From IMG/VR virus record IMGVR_UViG_3300030085_004057, positions 1-22,340 of that record: 22,340 bases of DNA; one strand, given 5' to 3'. How positions within the stretch are numbered: the first letter of the stretch is position 1; every line of letters begins with the position of its first letter. This DNA is from a virus. The position numbers and the translations under genes are program-made. The notes beneath the pieces were generated by a model that was not told the DNA's origin, did not search any database, and saw only the letters and a program-made list of their open reading frames with translations. This document shows positions 6,772 to 19,814 of the stretch, one piece after another.

Positions 6772-8625
6772 TTACGCTACTTCTTTGAACATTGAGAAAG
6801 TACTATCTGATAATGCAAGATTTAAATAAACCTCACGAACTGCAAAGATATCATCATTTTTAGGAACAGCAGTAATGTAAATATTGTTATCAGCATCACT
6901 ACCACTGATAATTTGAAGTTGGTTAATTAGCACCTTTCCTTCATCATAATTAACATTGCCAACATCATCAATCAGGACTACTTTACTTGCAGTAATTGAG
7001 TCAATAGTATATATTCTTAAAACTCCATCCTCTGTATCTTCAAGATATACATCAATGTTATCATACCCACTAATTCTAAATTTAGTACTGGTAATCGTAG
7101 GTGTGCCATCGCAAAATTTTGCAAATGAATTTACATAACACAGAAGATATTGAGCTTTAGCACTAAGTGCAGGAACTAGTTTTTTTCTAAGACGAAACTC
7201 AGTATTGTTTCCAGTAATAGATTGCTGAGCAGAATCAACTACTGTAGTAACTTTACTCTTCCTAATAACACCACCAAATTTACTAAGATTTGCAGATTCA
7301 TCATATTGAGTCAGATTATCAATAACTAAATTTCTAAGTTGCTCTTGAGTTAAATTTGTTTCCGTCTGGTTATAGAAAATTTTAGATAATACTAAAACAT
7401 CAACAACAGAGGGATCAACAATGATAGGAGTTACAGATGCAACTGTAAACTTCTTTAATTTTGATAAAATATCATTTTTTGTCGAATTACTCAAAATATC
7501 GCTATATTTTGGTTTAATAGCAATCTTTACACGTCCATATTCTGGCGGTTCTTCAGTTTCACCACCATATACAATAATATCTGCAATTGAAGAGTAAATT
7601 CTTTGTGTAATGATCTTATAATCATCTAATGTTACTGCTCTATTCTGTGCAGCATAGAATTTAGGAGCATTTGATTTAATCAATTCGTCAGACTCAATAT
7701 CATCACCCCCAGTACTACCACTTTTTACTGTAACGTTAACTCCTGTTATAACACGGGAACTATTCTCATCATAAAGTTCTCCAGAAAATACAAAATCCTT
7801 AATATCATTGGCAGTTTGACCAGATGTTGTTAAATATGAAACTTCAATAACTTGACCATCCTTTAATGCTTTTCCAAGGACTCCATCGCCAAAAATTAAC
7901 TCATATCTGCTGTCATTAATTTCCTGAACAAAGAACACAGGATCATTTGCAGAAACATCTAAGATATTAGATACTTTTTCAAAAACTTCTTTATTAGATG
8001 CATTTGCATTTTCTCTCACTGATACTCTAATTGTCTCAGTATCAATATTTCCAGTTGGAATTACGAATTTTTGATTTGGAATTGTATCATCTACAACAAA
8101 TGAAAATGTTAAGTAAACACCCTCCAAGATGTTTAAATTGCGATCATCATCTCTATTGCTGATACGGCAAATATTATTGACAACAGGACTTACAACGTCC
8201 TCAAGAACTGCAAATTGAAATGTCTCTGACCTAGCATCTACATTTGATGCAATAAAACAATTCCCCTTCTTCAGCGTAAGGAATCTTGGCACCAATCTTT
8301 GGTCAATTGCGGCAACAGAACTAAAATCAACTTTTAACTCTACAACAGCAGTGGATGAAGTTCTGGATTTTGCAGTATACCCTAACTGTTTCGCAATTCT
8401 TACAATATTATCTCTTAATGATGCTGATGATAAGAAATTTTCATTAGCTGCCATCGTTGTATTGAAGGCAGTGTAATAGGTATTGTACGCCAAAAGATCA
8501 ACCACTGATGACAGGGTTGATCCTTCAAAATCATAATCAGTAAAATCGGTATTACGCCTCAAATATTCAACCAGAGCAGCTCTGATATCAGCGTAATCTA
8601 GAGAACTAACTTGTGCGAATGCCAT
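6772..8625 (-). CDS. gp6: baseplate wedge subunit gp6
   Basis: This 617-residue protein is close in length to T4 gp6 (660). The N-terminus (SLDYADIRAALVEYLRRNTDFTDYDF, followed by a helix with STLSSVVDLLAYNTYYTAFN) is characteristic of gp6 of T4-like cyanophages. A central region around residues 230-400 (FGDGVLGKALKDGQVIEVSYL, SGSTGGDDIESDELIKSNAP) matches the Baseplate_J/gp6 core. In T4, gp6 dimers form the inner ring linking the wedges around the hub. The start lies 3 nt after the gp25 stop and its own stop is 1 nt before the giant ORF, so the three genes form one tight baseplate operon. No clear Shine-Dalgarno site is seen, so translation is probably coupled to gp25. Confidence 0.95.
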   Translation of the reverse strand: MAFAQVSSLDYADIRAALVEYLRRNTDFTDYDFEGSTLSSVVDLLAYNTYYTAFNTTMAANENFLSSASLRDNIVRIAKQLGYTAKSRTSSTAVVELKVDFSSVAAIDQRLVPRFLTLKKGNCFIASNVDARSETFQFAVLEDVVSPVVNNICRISNRDDDRNLNILEGVYLTFSFVVDDTIPNQKFVIPTGNIDTETIRVSVRENANASNKEVFEKVSNILDVSANDPVFFVQEINDSRYELIFGDGVLGKALKDGQVIEVSYLTTSGQTANDIKDFVFSGELYDENSSRVITGVNVTVKSGSTGGDDIESDELIKSNAPKFYAAQNRAVTLDDYKIITQRIYSSIADIIVYGGETEEPPEYGRVKIAIKPKYSDILSNSTKNDILSKLKKFTVASVTPIIVDPSVVDVLVLSKIFYNQTETNLTQEQLRNLVIDNLTQYDESANLSKFGGVIRKSKVTTVVDSAQQSITGNNTEFRLRKKLVPALSAKAQYLLCYVNSFAKFCDGTPTITSTKFRISGYDNIDVYLEDTEDGVLRIYTIDSITASKVVLIDDVGNVNYDEGKVLINQLQIISGSDADNNIYITAVPKNDDIFAVREVYLNLALSDSTFSMFKEVA

Positions 8626-9647: not shown

Positions 9648-9739
9648 TCTTCTTTTTTCTTGTCTGGATGCTCTTGATCAGCAGGTCTACGTCCTACGAC
9701 GTAACCATAGGTCTTTGGTGCTGGAGTTTCTTCGCTCAT
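9644..9739 (-). CDS. very small hypothetical protein, 31 aa
   Basis: The ORF begins MSEETPAPKTYGYVVGRRPA and ends in a charged stretch of Lys and Glu. Its ATG overlaps the stop of the 48-residue gene (ATGA) and its own stop overlaps the ATG of the 160-residue gene (ATGA again). This double overlap leaves no unexplained bases and is the main support for it being translated. Function unknown; it could serve mainly to couple translation between its neighbours. Confidence 0.6.
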   Translation of the reverse strand: MSEETPAPKTYGYVVGRRPADQEHPDKKKEE

Positions 9740-9882
9740 CTTCCTTGTCCGCGATAACGTTTACGGGCTCCGTTACGGGAGCTTGCACTGTATTTAGTAT
9801 GCTGACCATCTCCCTGGCGCGTTTTTTTGGGCTTTGACTCAATGTTAGCGTTGCCACCAGTAAGTGAAGGGCGTTTTGCCAT
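9736..9882 (-). CDS. small basic protein, 48 aa (SKPKKTRQG...YRGQGR)
   Basis: A strongly basic 48-residue protein: MAKRPSLTGGNANIESKPKK, then TRQGDGQHTKYS and a C-terminal RKRYRGQGR. The KPKKTRQGxGxHxK...KRYRGQG pattern is one I remember as a conserved small protein in T4-like cyanophages, with no assigned function. An AGGA element 6 nt upstream of the ATG gives a usable ribosome site, unlike most neighbours, which fits it being the first gene of the 48-31-160-43-gp25 chain. An extended -10 promoter lies about 25-30 nt upstream. Nucleic-acid or scaffold binding is plausible from the charge, but not shown. A longer ORF in another frame (9687-9893) overlaps it and is rejected. Confidence 0.8.
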   Translation of the reverse strand: MAKRPSLTGGNANIESKPKKTRQGDGQHTKYSASSRNGARKRYRGQGR

Positions 9883-9920: not shown

Positions 9921-12900
9921 TTATGCTTCTGCAACACTAATGATTTGGATTTGTGTTCCTCCTGATTCATTTCCATTAGAAGGATTAGAAACAATTACTT
10001 CAGCAGGACTGCTTGAATTCTGGGAAGGACTTGGAAGACCACCAATGTAAGATGCACCTCCGCCACCACCACCGCCGAAGTAACCACCCTCGTTAACATC
10101 ATTATCCCATCCACCACCGCCGCCACCGCCGCCGTAGTAACCGAATCCACCAGCACCACCGTCTCCATCAATACCTCCGCCTCCTCCTCCAGATGAGAAG
10201 AATGCACCATCACCTCCTCTACTAGCAGATAGATCCCCGCCAGCATTTCCACCTGTTCCACCAGAACCACTCTTATAACCGCTTACAGAACCACCAGTGC
10301 CCCCATAAGAAGTATTTAAATTTGAACCAATAGAACCATTAGGTAATCCAGCTTTACCGCCTGCAGGTTCTGATGGTCTGGGTAGACCGCCAGCCCCTGA
10401 TTCGCTTCTAGGATTACCTTGATATCCACCTTCTGCTGCAAGCATAATACAGTTATTACCTATCGCAGATGTTCCATGGAAGACTGCTGCATATCTAGTG
10501 TCATAATGAAGTAAATATGGTTGTCCAGCTTTTGCAGTAAATGTTCCCTGAACATAAGATCCTTGTCCACCATTACCTGGGGGTGTTCCACCACGAAGTC
10601 TTATAGTGACAATATAATCCTTTGCAGATGGAGTTAAGAATGCAGGTTCTGACAATGTAGTTGTACTAGAAAGACTAGTAATATCTACTGATGTTCCACT
10701 AACAGTGCCAATAATTTCTAATGACCCAGGAACGGTCATTGAAATGACTGCTAGACCATTTTGACTAGCTCCACCATGACCACTAACGTGCTCTGGAGGT
10801 AATGAAGCAGGAACGGGCGCTGCACCACCTGCAGTTCCTGTATTACCTACACTAGCACTGGTATATGCTAGAGAGATAGAACCTGATCCTCCTGCTCCAC
10901 CACCGCCAGTACAGTTACCATTACCATCTCCGCCAGCACCAGCGCCGCCCGAAACTCCTGATCCACCTCCACCGCCACGGTTACCTTGGTTTATGCCAGA
11001 ACCGCCGCCAGCGCCGCCTCCAAATCTTCCAGAAGTACCACTAACTTGACCAGTGTTTGGACCTGTTCCAGCACCGCCACCTCCAGTACCTCCACCGCCG
11101 CCACCTTGTCCATTCTGACCAGCACCACCACCGCCACCTACGATAGCTGAAAGACCATTAAAAGTAATTTCAGATCTTTGACCGCCACGACCAGCACCAT
11201 ATCCTGCCTGACCTGTTGGAGATCCCTCTCCAGTAGAACCTACAAATACTGATATAGTTCTTGTCGCTGGTGAATAATCATATCTCTTTACATCAAAACC
11301 ATTACAATAGTCTCCTTGACCACTGGAACCAGTTCCACAGGAATTATCAGTTTTCCATCCATAAGCACTATTGGATCTGTAAGTTCCCCAGGTATAAGCG
11401 TAGGTTCCAACAATTATATAACCATCTTCATTTGGTGCATATGTTCCATCATATACCAGAGTTCCTTGCCACAAAATTTGTAATTGTCTTACACCATTGA
11501 TACCAACGGTTTCTGGTCCCCCAGTTCTAGTATACCAACCATTTTGAGTATTAGTACAAGATGGTTTTTCAACTAAACCACCCTGACCCGTTTTTACTAC
11601 CACATTGGTATATGAAGAACCTGATGTAGTGCTAGGTATAGTGACTGTTCCCGTCGCATATCCTCCACCACCACCGCTAAAACTTCCTGTAGGACATTCA
11701 CCGACACCTTGCCCGCCAGCGCCCCACAACCAATAAGTAAATCCAGTTGCACTGGTGGGAACTGTAACGCTAGTTTCGCCAGTCTGTGTAATATTATATA
11801 CTTGTGATCCAGCAGCTGTAACTAATGTCACAACTTCTTCTGTAATTTTACTGGCACAAAATTCATTAACAAGTTTACAGCGATAAGTATCACTATTATT
11901 AGAACTTGATACTGTTGGTGTGGTATAACTTTCACTTGTAGCACCAGTAATATCGGAGAACGTAGTTTCTCCAGATCCTCGCTTTTGCCATTGATATGAA
12001 ATTGTCTGCCCAGAAACGCCAACGATTGCTGCCTTAACATTAAAAGTTGCTGTTCCTGACTGCAATACAACAGATCTTGGTTGAGTAATTAAATCAATGT
12101 ATGCTGGTTCGATTACAATTCTAGAATTTTGTTGCTCTTCACCAGCATCACCACGATTGGGATGAGTAGATCCTCCAAATGCACCAGTAGTTCCAACTGC
12201 AGTGGAATGAACAAAACCAGATCCTCCTGCTCCGCCTCCACCAGCCTGTGGTCCTTTGCCAGGGTTATTGCTACTGCCATCATATCCATCATGACCGCCA
12301 GCACCTCCACCGCCGCCATAATATCCACCACCGCCGCCACCGCCTCCAGCGGCAGAGTATGATCCAGAATTAGATCCTCCAGATCCACCAGATAGTGCAG
12401 ATCCCGCACTACCATTAGTGCTGCCTCCAGATGATGTAGCACCGCCAGCACCACCTAATGATTGAGTGGCACCATACCCTCCTTTAGCAGAAATTGTTGA
12501 TAATGTACTATTGGATCCATCGGATGCCACTGTACCACCACCAGCACCACCAATAACTTTTGCACCTCCATTATGACTAAAACTACCTTGAACTGTAGTA
12601 TATTTTGTACAAGGATATGAAATTGTTTGAATATCCTGGTATTCAATAGTCCAGGAACAACTAGCAACATAACTTGAATATCCATTATCATTCCTGCGGA
12701 ATGCAAGAACCATCCATTGCGAAGTTTTAGTTAGTTGAAACGTATCAAGATAAAATCCAGGACAAGCACCACCAGCAGCAGTACAACTACTAGTACTTAC
12801 TTGCAAGGTATATTGACCACTAGGCATGGTACTATCGAATCCAATAATATAATATCTTGCAGGTGGTTGAATATTGTATATCACACTGGTATTACCATAC

Positions 12901-16578: not shown

Positions 16579-16717
16579 AATTGTTTTGGAACTACCGTAT
16601 ATAGCAATCGGGGTTTTTTGGAGAATTTTTTTGGGGGAAAATTTTTTATATGAAAGAGATTCTCTCGGGCGTTTGGGAACCTTTGTAGGTTAGGGTAGTT
16701 TGGGTTTTTTGGATTAA

Positions 16718-16750
16718 GGGCGCAACGCCCCCAACCCGCCTAAGGGCGGG
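16718..16750 (-). terminator. two adjacent GC hairpins in the 16579-16759 gap, possible terminator
   Basis: CCCGCC-TAAG-GGCGGG (16735-16750) and GGGCG-CAA-CGCCC (16718-16730) lie within 10 and 30 nt after the stop of the 60-residue HicA-like gene. There is no clean U-run, so rho-independent action is uncertain. The rest of the 181-nt gap has homopolymer runs (T7, G5, T6 around 16625-16650) and no ORF. Confidence 0.45.
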
Positions 16751-16759
16751 GGGACTGTG

Positions 16760-16942
16760 CTATGCTGCCACTGCTCGCCTGATGTCGCGGCGGATGTTCT
16801 GCAGTGCCCTGTGGTCTGATGCCGTCTTGCTAGTGGTGACGATTGCCCCGCTAGCGTGTTGCCAGATTAGGTGCTTTCCAGACTGCCGCCGAAGGGTGAA
16901 CTGTGATGCCCTCATCAGAGGGGTGACCTGATCGCGTGCCAT
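16760..16942 (-). CDS. HicA-like (YcfA) toxin-fold protein, 60 aa, no HicB partner
   Basis: The central segment, FTLRRQSGKHLIWQHASGA and then IVTTSKTASDHRALQNIRR, follows the HicA dsRBD-like pattern: strand, G-(K/S)-H, hydrophobic-W/Y, H-x-x-G, V, a TP/TSK turn, then a C-terminal helix. The His in GKH (residue 24) is at the position of the catalytic His of HicA mRNA interferases. Length is typical of HicA (55-65). No HicB-like ORF is adjacent. Possible roles are an early host-mRNA-degrading nuclease or a non-toxic RNA-binding relic. The ATG is 3 nt after the previous stop, so it is co-transcribed with the 74-residue ORF. Confidence 0.65.
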   Translation of the reverse strand: MARDQVTPLMRASQFTLRRQSGKHLIWQHASGAIVTTSKTASDHRALQNIRRDIRRAVAA

Positions 16943-17172: not shown

Positions 17173-17188
17173 GAGGGGGCGACCCCTC
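17173..17188 (-). terminator. GC hairpin overlapping the YETWN gene stop
   Basis: GAGGGG-GCGA-CCCCTC forms a 6-bp stem with a 4-base loop across the stop of the 82-residue gene. It lies between that stop and the next ATG. No T-run follows, so it may be a weak terminator or an RNA-stabilising element. Confidence 0.35.
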
Positions 17189-17435
17189 ACAGTTCCCACA
17201 GCATCTCGTTCATCTCGTCTGCATCAATGGCGGGGTCATCCCAACGCACACCGTCACCAGTGGCACCGAGGAAAGAACCGATTTGTCCATCCATCATACA
17301 GCGAACGAACTTGTCCCATGGTGTCTCCAGACCCTCGCGATAGGTGACACATGCCTTAGCAGTGTTGTAGAGGAATTCATCGTTGCCGATCCAGAGGGAA
17401 GCGTTCCAGGTTTCGTAGTTTGCCCAACCGTTCAT
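17187..17435 (-). CDS. conserved YETWN-motif protein, 82 aa
   Basis: The start MNGWANYETWNASLWIGNDE is a strong signature: NYETWN-x(2)-LWI-x-ND at the N-terminus is shared by a widespread family of short phage and cyanobacterial proteins with no known function. The middle has AKACVTYREGLETPWDKFV, and the C-terminus DADEMNEMLWEL is an acidic helix. It has its own TATAAT box 28 nt upstream with the shared AGTTCACACAA leader, so it is expressed as a separate unit. The promoter overlaps the end of the 37-residue gene leader region. A role in early host takeover is inferred from position only. Confidence 0.85.
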   Translation of the reverse strand: MNGWANYETWNASLWIGNDEFLYNTAKACVTYREGLETPWDKFVRCMMDGQIGSFLGATGDGVRWDDPAIDADEMNEMLWEL

Positions 17436-17446
17436 GGTGTTGTGTG

Positions 17447-17469
17447 TTGTGTGAACTGTGCTTATTATA
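17447..17469 (-). promoter_or_regulatory. promoter unit copy 1 (TATAAT-N6-AGTTCACACAA)
   Basis: TATAAT (17464-17469) is followed after 6 nt by AGTTCACACAA (17447-17457), just upstream of the YETWN gene. The upstream TCACA box found in other copies is absent here, and no TTGACA is present at 17-nt spacing. Confidence 0.65.
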
Positions 17470-17473
17470 AGGG

Positions 17474-17587
17474 TTAGGGACGCAGGAAGTCGGCGGTGGT
17501 GTCCAGTGCGTCTGCTGTCACAGTGCGGGCGGGGGTGCTGCTGTAGAACAGAATGCCCAGGGCAGCGATCACAATGATTTTAAACAT
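17474..17587 (-). CDS. small single-pass membrane peptide, 37 aa
   Basis: MFKIIVIAALGILFYSSTPA forms a hydrophobic membrane segment at residues 3-15, followed by a soluble tail ending DTTADFLRP. I remember similar peptides of this length (MFK..., ...TADF-x-RP) in other cyanophages, which supports it being translated. The stop is 5 nt before the TATAAT of the YETWN gene. A weaker copy of the leader motif (CTTCACACC) lies directly before its ATG but without its own TATAAT, so it is probably co-transcribed with the 63-residue gene. Function unknown; could act at the host membrane. Confidence 0.7.
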   Translation of the reverse strand: MFKIIVIAALGILFYSSTPARTVTADALDTTADFLRP

Positions 17588-17607
17588 GGTGTGAAGTGGT
17601 AGGATGA

Positions 17608-17799
17608 TCAGTCGCGGTCGGAAATGTTCCAACTGCCCCACTGTCCCTCGACTGCCTTGCCGTCACGGAATGCAGCACGAAGCAGGGCACGTTGCTTCTG
17701 ACGCTCCATCTCCTCGCGCATATACAACTCACCGATGCTAGCGAGATCGTCAGAGGATGCTAGGATGCCGTTGCCGTAGTCCTTGAGTTTCTTGGTCAT
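17608..17799 (-). CDS. small hypothetical protein, 63 aa
   Basis: MTKKLKDYGNGILASSDDLA begins the protein, followed by a charged helix (LYMREEMERQKQRALLRAAF) and a Trp-containing end (EGQWGSWNISDRD). Predicted mostly helical and soluble. It follows promoter unit copy 2, with 22 nt from TATAAT to ATG, and is followed after 20 nt by the membrane peptide. Not recognised. Confidence 0.7.
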   Translation of the reverse strand: MTKKLKDYGNGILASSDDLASIGELYMREEMERQKQRALLRAAFRDGKAVEGQWGSWNISDRD

Positions 17800-17804
17800 G
17801 TGCT

Positions 17805-17863
17805 TTGTGTGAACTGTGTTTATTATAAGGGGTCAGGAGCGGGGACGGCGGGCACCAGTGTGA
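17805..17863 (-). promoter_or_regulatory. promoter unit copy 2 (TCACA-N31-TATAAT-N6-AGTTCACACAA)
   Basis: TATAAT is at 17822-17827, AGTTCACACAA at 17805-17815, and TCACA at 17859-17863, 31 nt upstream of TATAAT. The TCACA lies in the end of the 74-residue gene, so it could be partly coincidence, but the spacing equals that of copies 3-5. Confidence 0.65.
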
Positions 17864-18057
17864 TAGTTCACCCATTGTCCCAAGGACCGATCACCAGACA
17901 GCAGCAGAGACACGATGTCACGCTTGCGGGTCTTGTAGGTGTACTCCATGCTGGGGGTCTTGAACCAGCGAACTTTGAACGTGCCAGTCAGGGGGTTTAC
18001 CTTGAGAGTCCAGACCGAGCGGGAGACGCTGGGGGAGATGCAGGAGACGTTAAGCAT
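17833..18057 (-). CDS. hypothetical protein, 74 aa
   Basis: I place the start at the ATG at 18057 (MLNVSCISPSVSRSVWTLKV) because it follows promoter unit copy 3 by 21 nt; the frame opens at 18102, upstream of the TATAAT, and those first 15 codons cannot be in the transcript. The protein has strands (VWTLKVNPLTGTFKVRWF), a basic stretch (YTYKTRKRDIVSLLLSGDRS) and a Trp-containing C-terminus. Alpha/beta, basic. No family identified. Confidence 0.7.
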   Translation of the reverse strand: MLNVSCISPSVSRSVWTLKVNPLTGTFKVRWFKTPSMEYTYKTRKRDIVSLLLSGDRSLGQWVNYHTGARRPRS

Positions 18058-18061
18058 TGCT

Positions 18062-18123
18062 TTGTTTGAACTGAAGTCATTATAGGCACAGGGTGGGGGC
18101 ATCAGCGCCCCCTAGTGTGACAC
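18062..18123 (-). promoter_or_regulatory. promoter unit copy 3 (TGTCACA-N31-TATAATG-N5-AGTTCAAACAA)
   Basis: TATAAT is at 18079-18084, AGTTCAAACAA at 18062-18072, and TCACA at 18116-18120 within the palindrome TAGTGT-C-ACACTA. The stretch ACCCTGTGCC directly before TATAAT is identical to copy 4. No TTGACA at -35. Confidence 0.75.
18095..18112 (-). terminator. GC hairpin after the 108-residue gene
   Basis: GGGGGC-(6 nt)-GCCCCC forms a 6-bp all-GC stem 11 nt after the stop at 18123. It lies inside the 31-nt spacer of promoter copy 3, so it can both end the upstream transcript and separate two units. No T-run follows. Confidence 0.45.
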
Positions 18124-18449
18124 TATGCCAGGCGCATACCAGAACGGAATTCTGTGGTGGCGTACTCGTCACCAGTCCACAGGCGGATGTACCATGTCCA
18201 GTCAGACTGATAGACGCACTCGCCGTGATGACCGAAGGCAGACAGCAGGGCATTCAGACGGGACTTGGTGGTGTTAGACTGCCAACCGCCATCAAACAGT
18301 TTCAGTGCCTCGTCTGTGATCTCAGCGATCAGGTTGCCATGCAGGTACACAGAGGAGACGCCATCGGCGTTGATCACTTCAGTGTTTGCGTTCTTCCAAT
18401 CGGTCTTGTGCTCAATGGCACGGTTCATCAGGAATTCAATCTTACGCAT
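18123..18449 (-). CDS. conserved phage protein, 108 aa (MRKIE...TTKSRLNALL)
   Basis: Start at 18449 (MRKIEFLMNRAIEHKTDWKN), 28 nt after the TATAAT of copy 4; the open frame extends to 18488 but that is upstream of the promoter. Family signature visible: NxxI near residue 9, an NT-x-V strand, YLHGN-x-IA, FDGGWQSNTTKSRLNALLSA, then a strand with WTWYIRLW. I remember this layout from short proteins in T7-like and T4-like cyanophages and other phages, all of unknown function. The WxSxTTKSRLNAL core suggests a conserved binding surface. It has its own promoter and a hairpin after the stop, making a single-gene unit. Confidence 0.85.
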   Translation of the reverse strand: MRKIEFLMNRAIEHKTDWKNANTEVINADGVSSVYLHGNLIAEITDEALKLFDGGWQSNTTKSRLNALLSAFGHHGECVYQSDWTWYIRLWTGDEYATTEFRSGMRLA

Positions 18450-18460
18450 GAGGTTCGTGG

Positions 18461-18522
18461 TTGTTTGAACTGAAGTCATTATAGGCACAGGGTCAGACGG
18501 AATGCGACCGACCTTGTGACAC
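18461..18522 (-). promoter_or_regulatory. promoter unit copy 4 (TGTCACA-N31-TATAATG-N5-AGTTCAAACAA)
   Basis: TATAAT is at 18478-18483, AGTTCAAACAA at 18461-18471, and TCACA at 18515-18519. From ACCCTGTGCC through TATAAT to AGTTCAAACAA it is identical to copy 3, while the spacer between the boxes is unrelated. Confidence 0.75.
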
Positions 18523-18527
18523 TTGTC

Positions 18528-18689
18528 TCACTGGTCGGCAAACATGCCCTCATGGGCATCCAGCACGAAGTCGATCACGTCATCGGTCGCAGACACGTTA
18601 AAGCGGTCGCAGAACCAGTCCAGCGCCATCTCAGGGGAAGGCATGGTGTCAAACATGAAATCTTGGAGTTCAGTCAGGCGGTCAGTCAT
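18528..18689 (-). CDS. small hypothetical protein, 53 aa
   Basis: Two in-frame ATGs exist, at 18707 and 18689. The first would lie only 6 nt after TATAAT, at or before the expected transcript start, so I prefer 18689 (MTDRLTELQDFMFDTMPSPE). The protein is acidic and helical: a Leu/Phe-rich helix, MALDWFCDRF, then a D/V-rich helix (ATDDVIDFVLDAHEGMFADQ). It has one Cys. Not recognised. If 18707 is used instead the mRNA would be leaderless. Confidence 0.65.
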   Translation of the reverse strand: MTDRLTELQDFMFDTMPSPEMALDWFCDRFNVSATDDVIDFVLDAHEGMFADQ

Positions 18690-18703
18690 CAGTTCGTTTG
18701 TTG

Positions 18704-18766
18704 TCATGTGACCATTATAAGCATAGGGTCTGGCGGTTCGCTGGTCCTAGTGTGCCACCTTGTCAA
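18704..18766 (-). promoter_or_regulatory. promoter unit copy 5 (GCACA-N31-TATAATG, diverged leader)
   Basis: TATAAT is at 18714-18719 and GGCACA at 18751-18756, again 31 nt from the box to TATAAT. ACCCTATGCT precedes TATAAT (ACCCTGTGCC in copies 3 and 4). The leader, ATGACAACAA, is a diverged form of AGTTCAAACAA at the same 6-nt distance. A TTGACA (18761-18766) lies 41 nt upstream, too far to be the -35. Confidence 0.6.
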
Positions 18767-18784
18767 CTGGAGCGAAGCGGCCGA

Positions 18785-19048
18785 TCAGTTTGTGTTACTT
18801 TCCTCCAGAATGTTTGGGTAGTATTCTTCTATCTCTGCGGTCAATTCTTTCTCCGAATACTTATCATAATTGTCGTTCAAATAATCATAAGCAAGTTGAC
18901 ACAATCCATCCATGTCCATACCATCAATGATTTGCTGAACTAAGTTTTCTTGAAGTGCAGAACGATCCATAAGATTTTTTGAGTTGACATAACAATACCC
19001 CACTGGGGAACCAATGGGGCATTTAGTGGACAGTTTACGAACTGGCAC
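18785..19048 (-). CDS. hypothetical protein, 87 aa, GTG start
   Basis: I choose the GTG at 19048 because AGGA lies 6 nt upstream, one of the few good ribosome sites here, directly after the previous gene's stop. N-terminus: KCPIGSPVGYCYVNSKNLMD, with two Cys around a Pro/Gly turn. The rest is an acidic helical region (VQQIIDGMDMDGLCQLAYDY, then NDNYDKYSEKELTAEIEEYY). It could start instead at Met27, giving 61 residues. The DNA is AT-rich again, marking the right edge of the GC-rich array. Function unknown. Confidence 0.65.
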   Translation of the reverse strand: MPVRKLSTKCPIGSPVGYCYVNSKNLMDRSALQENLVQQIIDGMDMDGLCQLAYDYLNDNYDKYSEKELTAEIEEYYPNILEESNTN

Positions 19049-19057
19049 AGGGGTCCT

Positions 19058-19667: not shown

Positions 19668-19669
19668 TA

Positions 19670-19754
19670 TAGGACTAGTCAGACTTGAACTGACAAGGAG
19701 TTAATCTCCGACAGATTTTAAGTCTGTTGTGTTTACCAATTTCACCATAGTCCC
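19670..19754 (-). tRNA. tRNA-Leu (anticodon UAA)
   Basis: An 85-nt class II tRNA on the minus strand. Acceptor stem GGGACTA pairs with TAGTCCT (first pair G-U); the D arm contains AAATTGGTAAA; the anticodon stem is ACAGA/TCTGT with loop CTTAAAA, giving anticodon TAA; the long variable arm GGAG-ATTAA-CTCC is expected for Leu; the T arm is GTCAG-TTCAAGT-CTGAC. Discriminator A, with no CCA encoded. It reads UUA, a codon suited to an AT-rich phage in a GC-richer host. Two sigma-70 promoters lie upstream. Confidence 0.95.
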
Positions 19755-19814
19755 AAAAGTGTTAAGTATAAGTTTTCCACAGAACTGTGAAATTCTCAAA
19801 TACTTAACTTTTAA

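Follow-up and report, generated by a model that had tools for sequence, protein, structure and literature searches.

A Candidate Activator-Assisted Promoter Unit Ahead of Single Small Genes in T4-like Cyanophages

Introduction

According to the abstract of Doron et al. 2016, the cyanophage Syn9 reportedly uses a novel element for early-gene transcription, which is conserved among T4-like cyanophages, and its middle promoters are said to be host-like. The unit described here likewise stands before clustered Syn9 genes and is conserved among T4-like cyanophages, and it probably corresponds to the "novel early regulatory element" of that study, an identity that we presume from the description of the element and not from its motif.

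The early promoters of phage T4 combine UP, -35, TGn, and -10 elements (PMC2988021), and the cyanophage units resemble them in their host-type -10, in carrying information upstream of the -35, and in having conserved bases beyond the core. However, the upstream part is an UP element in T4 and a palindromic, sequence-specific dyad here, with a weak -35 or none. T4 middle promoters also join a phage-specific upstream element to a host -10, mostly without a -35, but their MotA box is centered at -30, in place of the -35 (PMC2988021), whereas the cyanophage element is palindromic and lies at -67 to -40. Cyanomyoviruses are reported to be without motA and asiA homologues (PMC2984593). T4-type phages also have PeSL cassettes (Arbiol 2010 and Comeau 2014, cited in PMC4503421), which likewise place a promoter and a stem-loop between single small genes of variable regions; the cyanophage unit adds a dyad upstream of the hairpin. 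For the ORFanage of S-PM2, the reported elements are limited to two stem loops and one early promoter, near g016 (PMC4503421).

The units bear on how T4-like cyanophages, which are without the known T4 early and middle transcription factors, choose their first genes. We put at about 70% the probability that each is an activator-assisted, probably early, promoter of one small gene, at which the host polymerase would sit on the -10 and a putative dimer on the dyad, a reading drawn from sequence comparison.

Gene Setting and Promoter Units

The window, i.e., the whole stretch of DNA analyzed, is a 22,340-base IMG/VR virus record whose gene content identifies it as a fragment of a T4-like cyanophage. 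Within the phage collection, 250 cyanophage records contain related DNA, which in S-ShM2 is located a few kb upstream of gp25 and gp6. The block at 16.7-18.8 kb consists of small minus-strand genes with a GC content of 0.50-0.55, versus 0.32-0.42 in the flanks, and a tRNA-Leu (TAA) gene (19669-19755, minus strand) lies upstream of this cluster. Two further features were recorded nearby, both on the minus strand: a 60-aa small gene (16760-16942) with weak similarity to the HicA toxin (Pfam HicA E 0.0016, below the cut-off; phrog_353 toxin E 2.6e-4), and the conserved non-coding string AACTACCCTAACCTACAAAGGTTCCCAA (16640-16720; in L007 near 8350-8445), which is shared with S-ShM2 and has a diverged version in S-PRM1.

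Six units, all on the minus strand, are present in the window (Table 1): four exact copies and one diverged copy of TATAAT-N6-leader, plus U6. An earlier note on this DNA had listed five TATAAT boxes, with coordinates that are correct for the plus strand although the units are read on the minus strand, and had placed a leader six bases after each. AGTTCA is found there exactly in four of the five, while U5 (18714) reads TATAAT-N6-ATGACAACAA, the ATG inside being the gene's own start codon. The report of (T/G)CACA exactly 31 nt upstream in four of the five was accurate: the pentamer is TCACA for the -10 at 17827, 18084, and 18483, GCACA for that at 18719, and TGGAC for that at 17469. TTGACA is indeed missing at -35 spacing, the best match in the window units at 16-18 nt being 3/6, so that of the sigma70-type features the -10 is found in all six units and the -35 in none.

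When scored with a position model trained on other phages, the whole units reach 16.7 (U1), 25.1 (U2), 19.8 (U3), 34.9 (U4), 34.0 (U5), and 41.4 bits (U6), values in excess of chance, as the window, once its dinucleotides are shuffled, yields 0.05 hits at 16 bits or more and 0.02 at 18 bits or more. The strongest of the six, U6, spans 19049-18971 and had been overlooked. Two window copies, U1 and U3, have weak dyads.

Table 1. Components of the six units and the genes that follow them, in window coordinates
Feature	Position	Strand	Remarks
U1 dyad TGTGACAGCAGACGCACTGGACACC	17498..17522	-	weak, dyad 2.4 bits; arm G lies 35 nt from the -10
U1 -10 TATAAT; predicted +1 17457	17464..17469	-	core 11.4 bits; register from leaderless relatives
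U1 5' leader AGTTCACACAACACACAACACC	17436..17457	-	from sequence; anti-SD complementarity none
U1 gene, 82 aa, DUF7249	17187..17435	-	Pfam PF23907 E 2.7e-36
U2 dyad TGGGACAATGGGTGAACTATCACAC, within end of upstream gene	17858..17882	-	dyad 9.7 bits
U2 -10 TATAAT; predicted +1 17815, leader AGTTCACACAAAGCAC	17822..17827	-	position model
U2 gene, 63 aa, function unknown	17608..17799	-	phrog_10986
U3 dyad GTATGCGCCTGGCATAGTGTCACAC, right arm good, left degenerate	18115..18139	-	dyad 2.4 bits; R1 E 9.5e-6
U3 spacer hairpin GGGGGC-GCTGAT-GCCCCC	18085..18114	-	-14.2 kcal/mol, z -2.1
U3 -10 TATAAT; predicted +1 18072, leader AGTTCAAACAAAGCA	18079..18084	-	core 16.3 bits
U3 gene, 74 aa, function unknown	17833..18057	-	phrog_7365
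U4 dyad CCGACCAGTGAGACAAGTGTCACAA	18514..18538	-	dyad 17.5 bits; R1 E 1.2e-5
U4 spacer, weak hairpin	18484..18513	-	-10.2 kcal/mol, z -1.6
U4 -10 TATAAT; predicted +1 18471, leader AGTTCAAACAACCACGAACCTC	18478..18483	-	core 16.3 bits
U4 gene, 108 aa, Kyano_Gp96	18123..18449	-	Pfam PF23790 E 3.7e-44
U5 dyad CGCTCCAGTTGACAAGGTGGCACAC	18750..18774	-	dyad 19.4 bits; R1 E 4.9e-7
U5 -10 TATAAT; predicted +1 18707 = A of ATG (leaderless)	18714..18719	-	ATG offset 12
U5 gene, 59 aa, predicted leaderless mRNA	18528..18707	-	phrog_10297
U6 dyad TGTGCCAGTTCGTAAACTGTCCACT	19025..19049	-	dyad 26.9 bits; R1 E 2e-8
U6 spacer hairpin CCCCATTGG-TTCC-CCAGTGGGG	18998..19024	-	-15.0 kcal/mol, z -4.5
U6 -10 TATTGT; predicted +1 18985, leader AACTCAAAAAATCTT	18992..18997	-	core 12.2 bits
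U6 gene, 61 aa, DUF7326	18785..18970	-	Pfam PF24012 E 2.3e-17

The Upstream Dyad and the Spacer Hairpin

Comparison of the upstream regions of homologous genes from ∼160 environmental phage loci identifies the TCACA box as the right arm of an imperfect dyad of ∼25 bp, with the consensus TGTG(A/C)CA(G/C)T(T/C)-N4-5-A(A/G)(G/C)TG(G/T)CACA. Given the +1 register derived from leaderless genes (see Start Sites and Leaders), this dyad occupies about -67 to -40, in place of the element at about -46 suggested before. Nor is the 31-nt spacing fixed, as it varies by ∼4 nt across the family: among 335 dyads, the -10 words follow TGNCAC by 29-32 nt and the longer arm TGTCCAC by 28-30 nt, and the distance from dyad to -10 in the relatives is held to 28-32 nt.

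A profile of 193 non-redundant units is informative at the dyad, at the -10, and in a block at +1, and it shows a weak -35 besides. About 20% of the family units have a -35 of at least 4/6 at 17-nt spacing, and thus the dyad is no strict replacement for the -35. The association also appears when the sites are drawn by the leader, as TATAAT-N6-AGTTCANACAA, and then scored for the dyad: of 77 distinct environmental sites of this kind, 46 have a dyad of at least 5 bits in place, compared with 0 of 77 controls, and the weakest of the remaining sites are degenerate versions of the dyad or chance matches. The idea of a phage promoter that recurs as a unit and whose upstream element is under constraint is supported, and a bound factor would be the best explanation of that element. 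A CRP/NtcA-type host site was considered and rejected by inspection, because the TGTG...CACA span is 24 bp and GTA-N8-TAC is absent.

A terminator-like hairpin is often found between the dyad and the -10. It appears in the leader-first consensus as a G/C hairpin with a T-run, which would be a terminator-like structure for the upstream gene, and it is present in U3, U4, and U6 and absent from U1, U2, and U5. The family spacers have a mean z of -0.88, versus -0.22 upstream. The spacers cannot be called unrelated, as they had been, because the box belongs to the 25-bp dyad and some of them, like those of U3 and U4, contain a hairpin.

This structure raises the question of whether the upstream element itself acts as RNA, that is, as a terminator or processing signal that ends the upstream transcript, with only the -10 serving as a promoter. 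The dyad arms are complementary and fold better than shuffles (mean z -1.43), and the terminator-like hairpin follows just downstream in many units. However, that hairpin is an element separate from the dyad, the spacing of the dyad to the -10 is constrained, and the arms of the window copies fail to form the predicted stem. Moreover, the arm bases show no pairwise covariation: the mismatch G..G is favored, occurring in 104 of the 193 units versus 62 with pairable bases, and two other arm positions are independent (p 0.55 and 0.82). Such variation of the arms, independent or contrary to pairing, speaks for DNA bound by a protein dimer rather than for an RNA stem, and we regard an RNA element as very unlikely.

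In S-PM2, one of the two reported stem loops, that after p038 (11369-11391), forms the spacer hairpin in a unit with its dyad at 11365; this stem loop was previously noted without the promoter (PMC4503421). Such a composite of promoter and hairpin between single small genes of a variable region is reminiscent of the PeSLs of T4-like phages (PMC4503421), and U3 and U4 are near-identical around the -10, as if the units were recombination cassettes whose similarity stems from recent copying or modular shuffling and not from regulatory selection. Yet the 193 units, which have low identity to one another, share just the dyad, the -10, and the +1 while their spacers differ, which indicates a motif under selection. 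The units may have a role in recombination as well, but we find it quite improbable that copying accounts for their likeness.

Distribution among Phages and Hosts

A profile built from 36 units detects 2-18 units in each of ten cyanomyoviruses, namely S-ShM2, S-PRM1, Sf-CH11, Syn9, S-PM2, P-SSM2, P-HM2, S-TIM5, S-CRM01, and P-TIM68, the first three of which gave loci to the motif set and are thus not fully independent. The same profile finds none in nine other phages (P-SSP7, Syn5, T4, KVP40, phiM12, HTVC008M, Ma-LMM01, P-SS2, and S-CBS2). At 20 bits or more, the position model reports 7-28 units each in Syn9, S-TIM5, P-HM2, S-CRM01, S-PM2, and P-SSM2, with 0-0.2 units in shuffles and 0 units in HTVC008M and phiM12, and when trained without the window and without Syn9, it still recovers the Syn9 units. 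The matrix scan of related cyanophages proposed in the earlier note was therefore borne out, with units before many other small genes and in 10 of 10 cyanomyoviruses. Syn9 has ten units, eight of them within its small-gene cluster at 43-53 kb, S-PM2 has 17 within 2-23 kb, and in P-HM2 the sites on both strands agree with gene direction. Among the Syn9 units are those near 44.8, 47.2, 48.6, 49.1, 51.0, 53.0, 127.5, and 148.8 kb.

Regarding the hosts, 42 of the 44 picocyanobacterial genomes searched yield no unit at E 0.02, and the dyad pattern has 0 hits in 4 of 7 picocyanobacteria. The host genomes show no sign of a regulon, and since the dyad is missing from them, it is unlikely that a host activator controls a regulon of its own through this site. 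Presence of the unit does not track the host either, given that podo- and siphoviruses of picocyanobacteria are without it, and the factor therefore probably belongs to the lineage of cyanomyoviruses.

Among the 44 host genomes, the dyad clearly occurs in just one, that of Cyanobium sp. CH-040 (L270, G005:C1:111500-131400), where three strong dyads are located within 16 kb (∼2560/2547, 16800, and 18354) in an island with an integrase and a type IIG restriction enzyme, one dyad lying upstream of the integrase. This is possibly a satellite or defense island wired to phage early regulation.

Proposed Mechanism and Promoter Class

In the mechanism that we propose for the variable small-gene region of a T4-like cyanophage, each unit would serve a single small gene as its independent promoter. 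A sigma70-type RNA polymerase from the host would read the TATAAT-like -10, mostly without a -35, and start 7 nt after it. A putative protein dimer on the 25-bp dyad (-67 to -40) would compensate for the missing -35 contact, from a position within reach of the alpha C-terminal domains or of sigma region 4. The hairpin between the dyad and the -10 would often terminate the upstream gene, and with its own promoter and a hairpin ending the gene before it, each gene would be a self-contained cassette. The mRNA would open either on an unstructured leader rich in A and C (AGTTCAAACAA) or on the AUG itself.

A dimer on the dyad might also act in the opposite sense, as a phage repressor that shuts the early genes after the first minutes, the -10 alone driving their initial expression. 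Early genes would then need no new phage activator, operators of this type are usually dyads, and the palindrome is phage-specific, the host genomes being without it. Nevertheless, the dyad is placed upstream of the -35 region at a distance held to ∼4 nt, which suits contact with the polymerase better than a block, and most units are without a good -35 that could account for strong basal activity. We consider repression unlikely and infer activation.

The promoters, which precede small genes of probable takeover function, likely belong to the early expression class, judging from where they lie in the small-gene cluster, from the lack of late motifs in that cluster of Syn9, and from the abstract of Doron et al. 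2016. The late motifs are an indirect sign: on the Syn9 plus strand, none of the 37 copies of NATAAATA falls in the small-gene cluster (43-54 kb), where ∼2.3 would be expected by length. The T4 late promoter has TATAAATA at the -10, and the TATAAT and TATTGT boxes of the window do not continue as TATAAATA. The proposal of a counterpart of T4 middle promoters was not sustained: nothing strong occurs at the MotA position, no element centered at -30 being found between the conserved -67 to -40 dyad and the conserved -10 and +1, apart from the weak -35; motA and asiA are reported to be absent from cyanomyoviruses (PMC2984593); and the copies are grouped among the small genes, a position that points to the early class.

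A point against the proposed mechanism is that an early gene cannot await a newly made phage activator unless this activator arrives with the virion. Comparison of gene content pointed to phrog_516, a 48-aa basic protein (window 9736-9882, minus strand) whose copies in Syn9 and in S-TIM5, a distant myovirus, share 65% identity and which also occurs in the siphovirus P-SS2. It was rejected as the virion or early factor, as it is missing from S-PRM1 yet present in the dyad-less P-SS2. The protein is unusually conserved, and its function is unknown.

A more specific conjecture, for which we see only an outside chance, is that T4-like cyanophages bring with them, or make immediately, an activator not yet described that has the dyad as its operator, that replaces the MotA/AsiA route, and that at least one host island (Cyanobium CH-040) could use as an infection sensor. 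The dyad, the searchable model, the predicted +1, and the sites in Syn9 and S-PM2 make the binder findable and the starts checkable against existing RNA-seq.

Start Sites and Leaders

A start codon is identifiable in 152 of the 193 units. Counted from the first base of the -10, the ATG is at an offset of exactly 12 in 39 of these 152, with one case at offset 11 and none at offset 13, and nearly all the other start codons lie 27-38 bases from that base. The class with the ATG at offset 12, about a quarter of the units with an identified start codon, must thus be leaderless or nearly so, and its register fixes the +1 where the leader begins, in agreement with the earlier note. The U5 copy appears diverged because it belongs to this leaderless class, and its first ATG is probably used, since phrog_10297 matches residues 3-59 of the product.

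Leaderless starts characterize the environmental relatives, and no such peak was seen in Syn9 or S-PM2. In these relatives (e.g., L029, L050, and L082), starts exactly 6 nt after -10 words generally number 158, versus ∼30 at neighboring offsets, and leaderless mRNAs may be common in their phage clade.

Shine-Dalgarno sites are missing, as had been noted, at most gene starts of the window and not just at those of the units; their absence is ruled out as a special mark of the leader because it is general to the genes of this phage.

In small-gene regions, the units serve to correct gene starts and to predict leaderless mRNAs. The promoter position and the DUF7326 match point to the ATG at 18970, which follows the first -10 base by 27 nt, as the probable start of the U6 gene, and the longer GTG ORF (18785-19048) was probably mis-called. 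The annotated starts of Syn9 gp61 and gp73 overlap the promoter in the same way as this GTG ORF.
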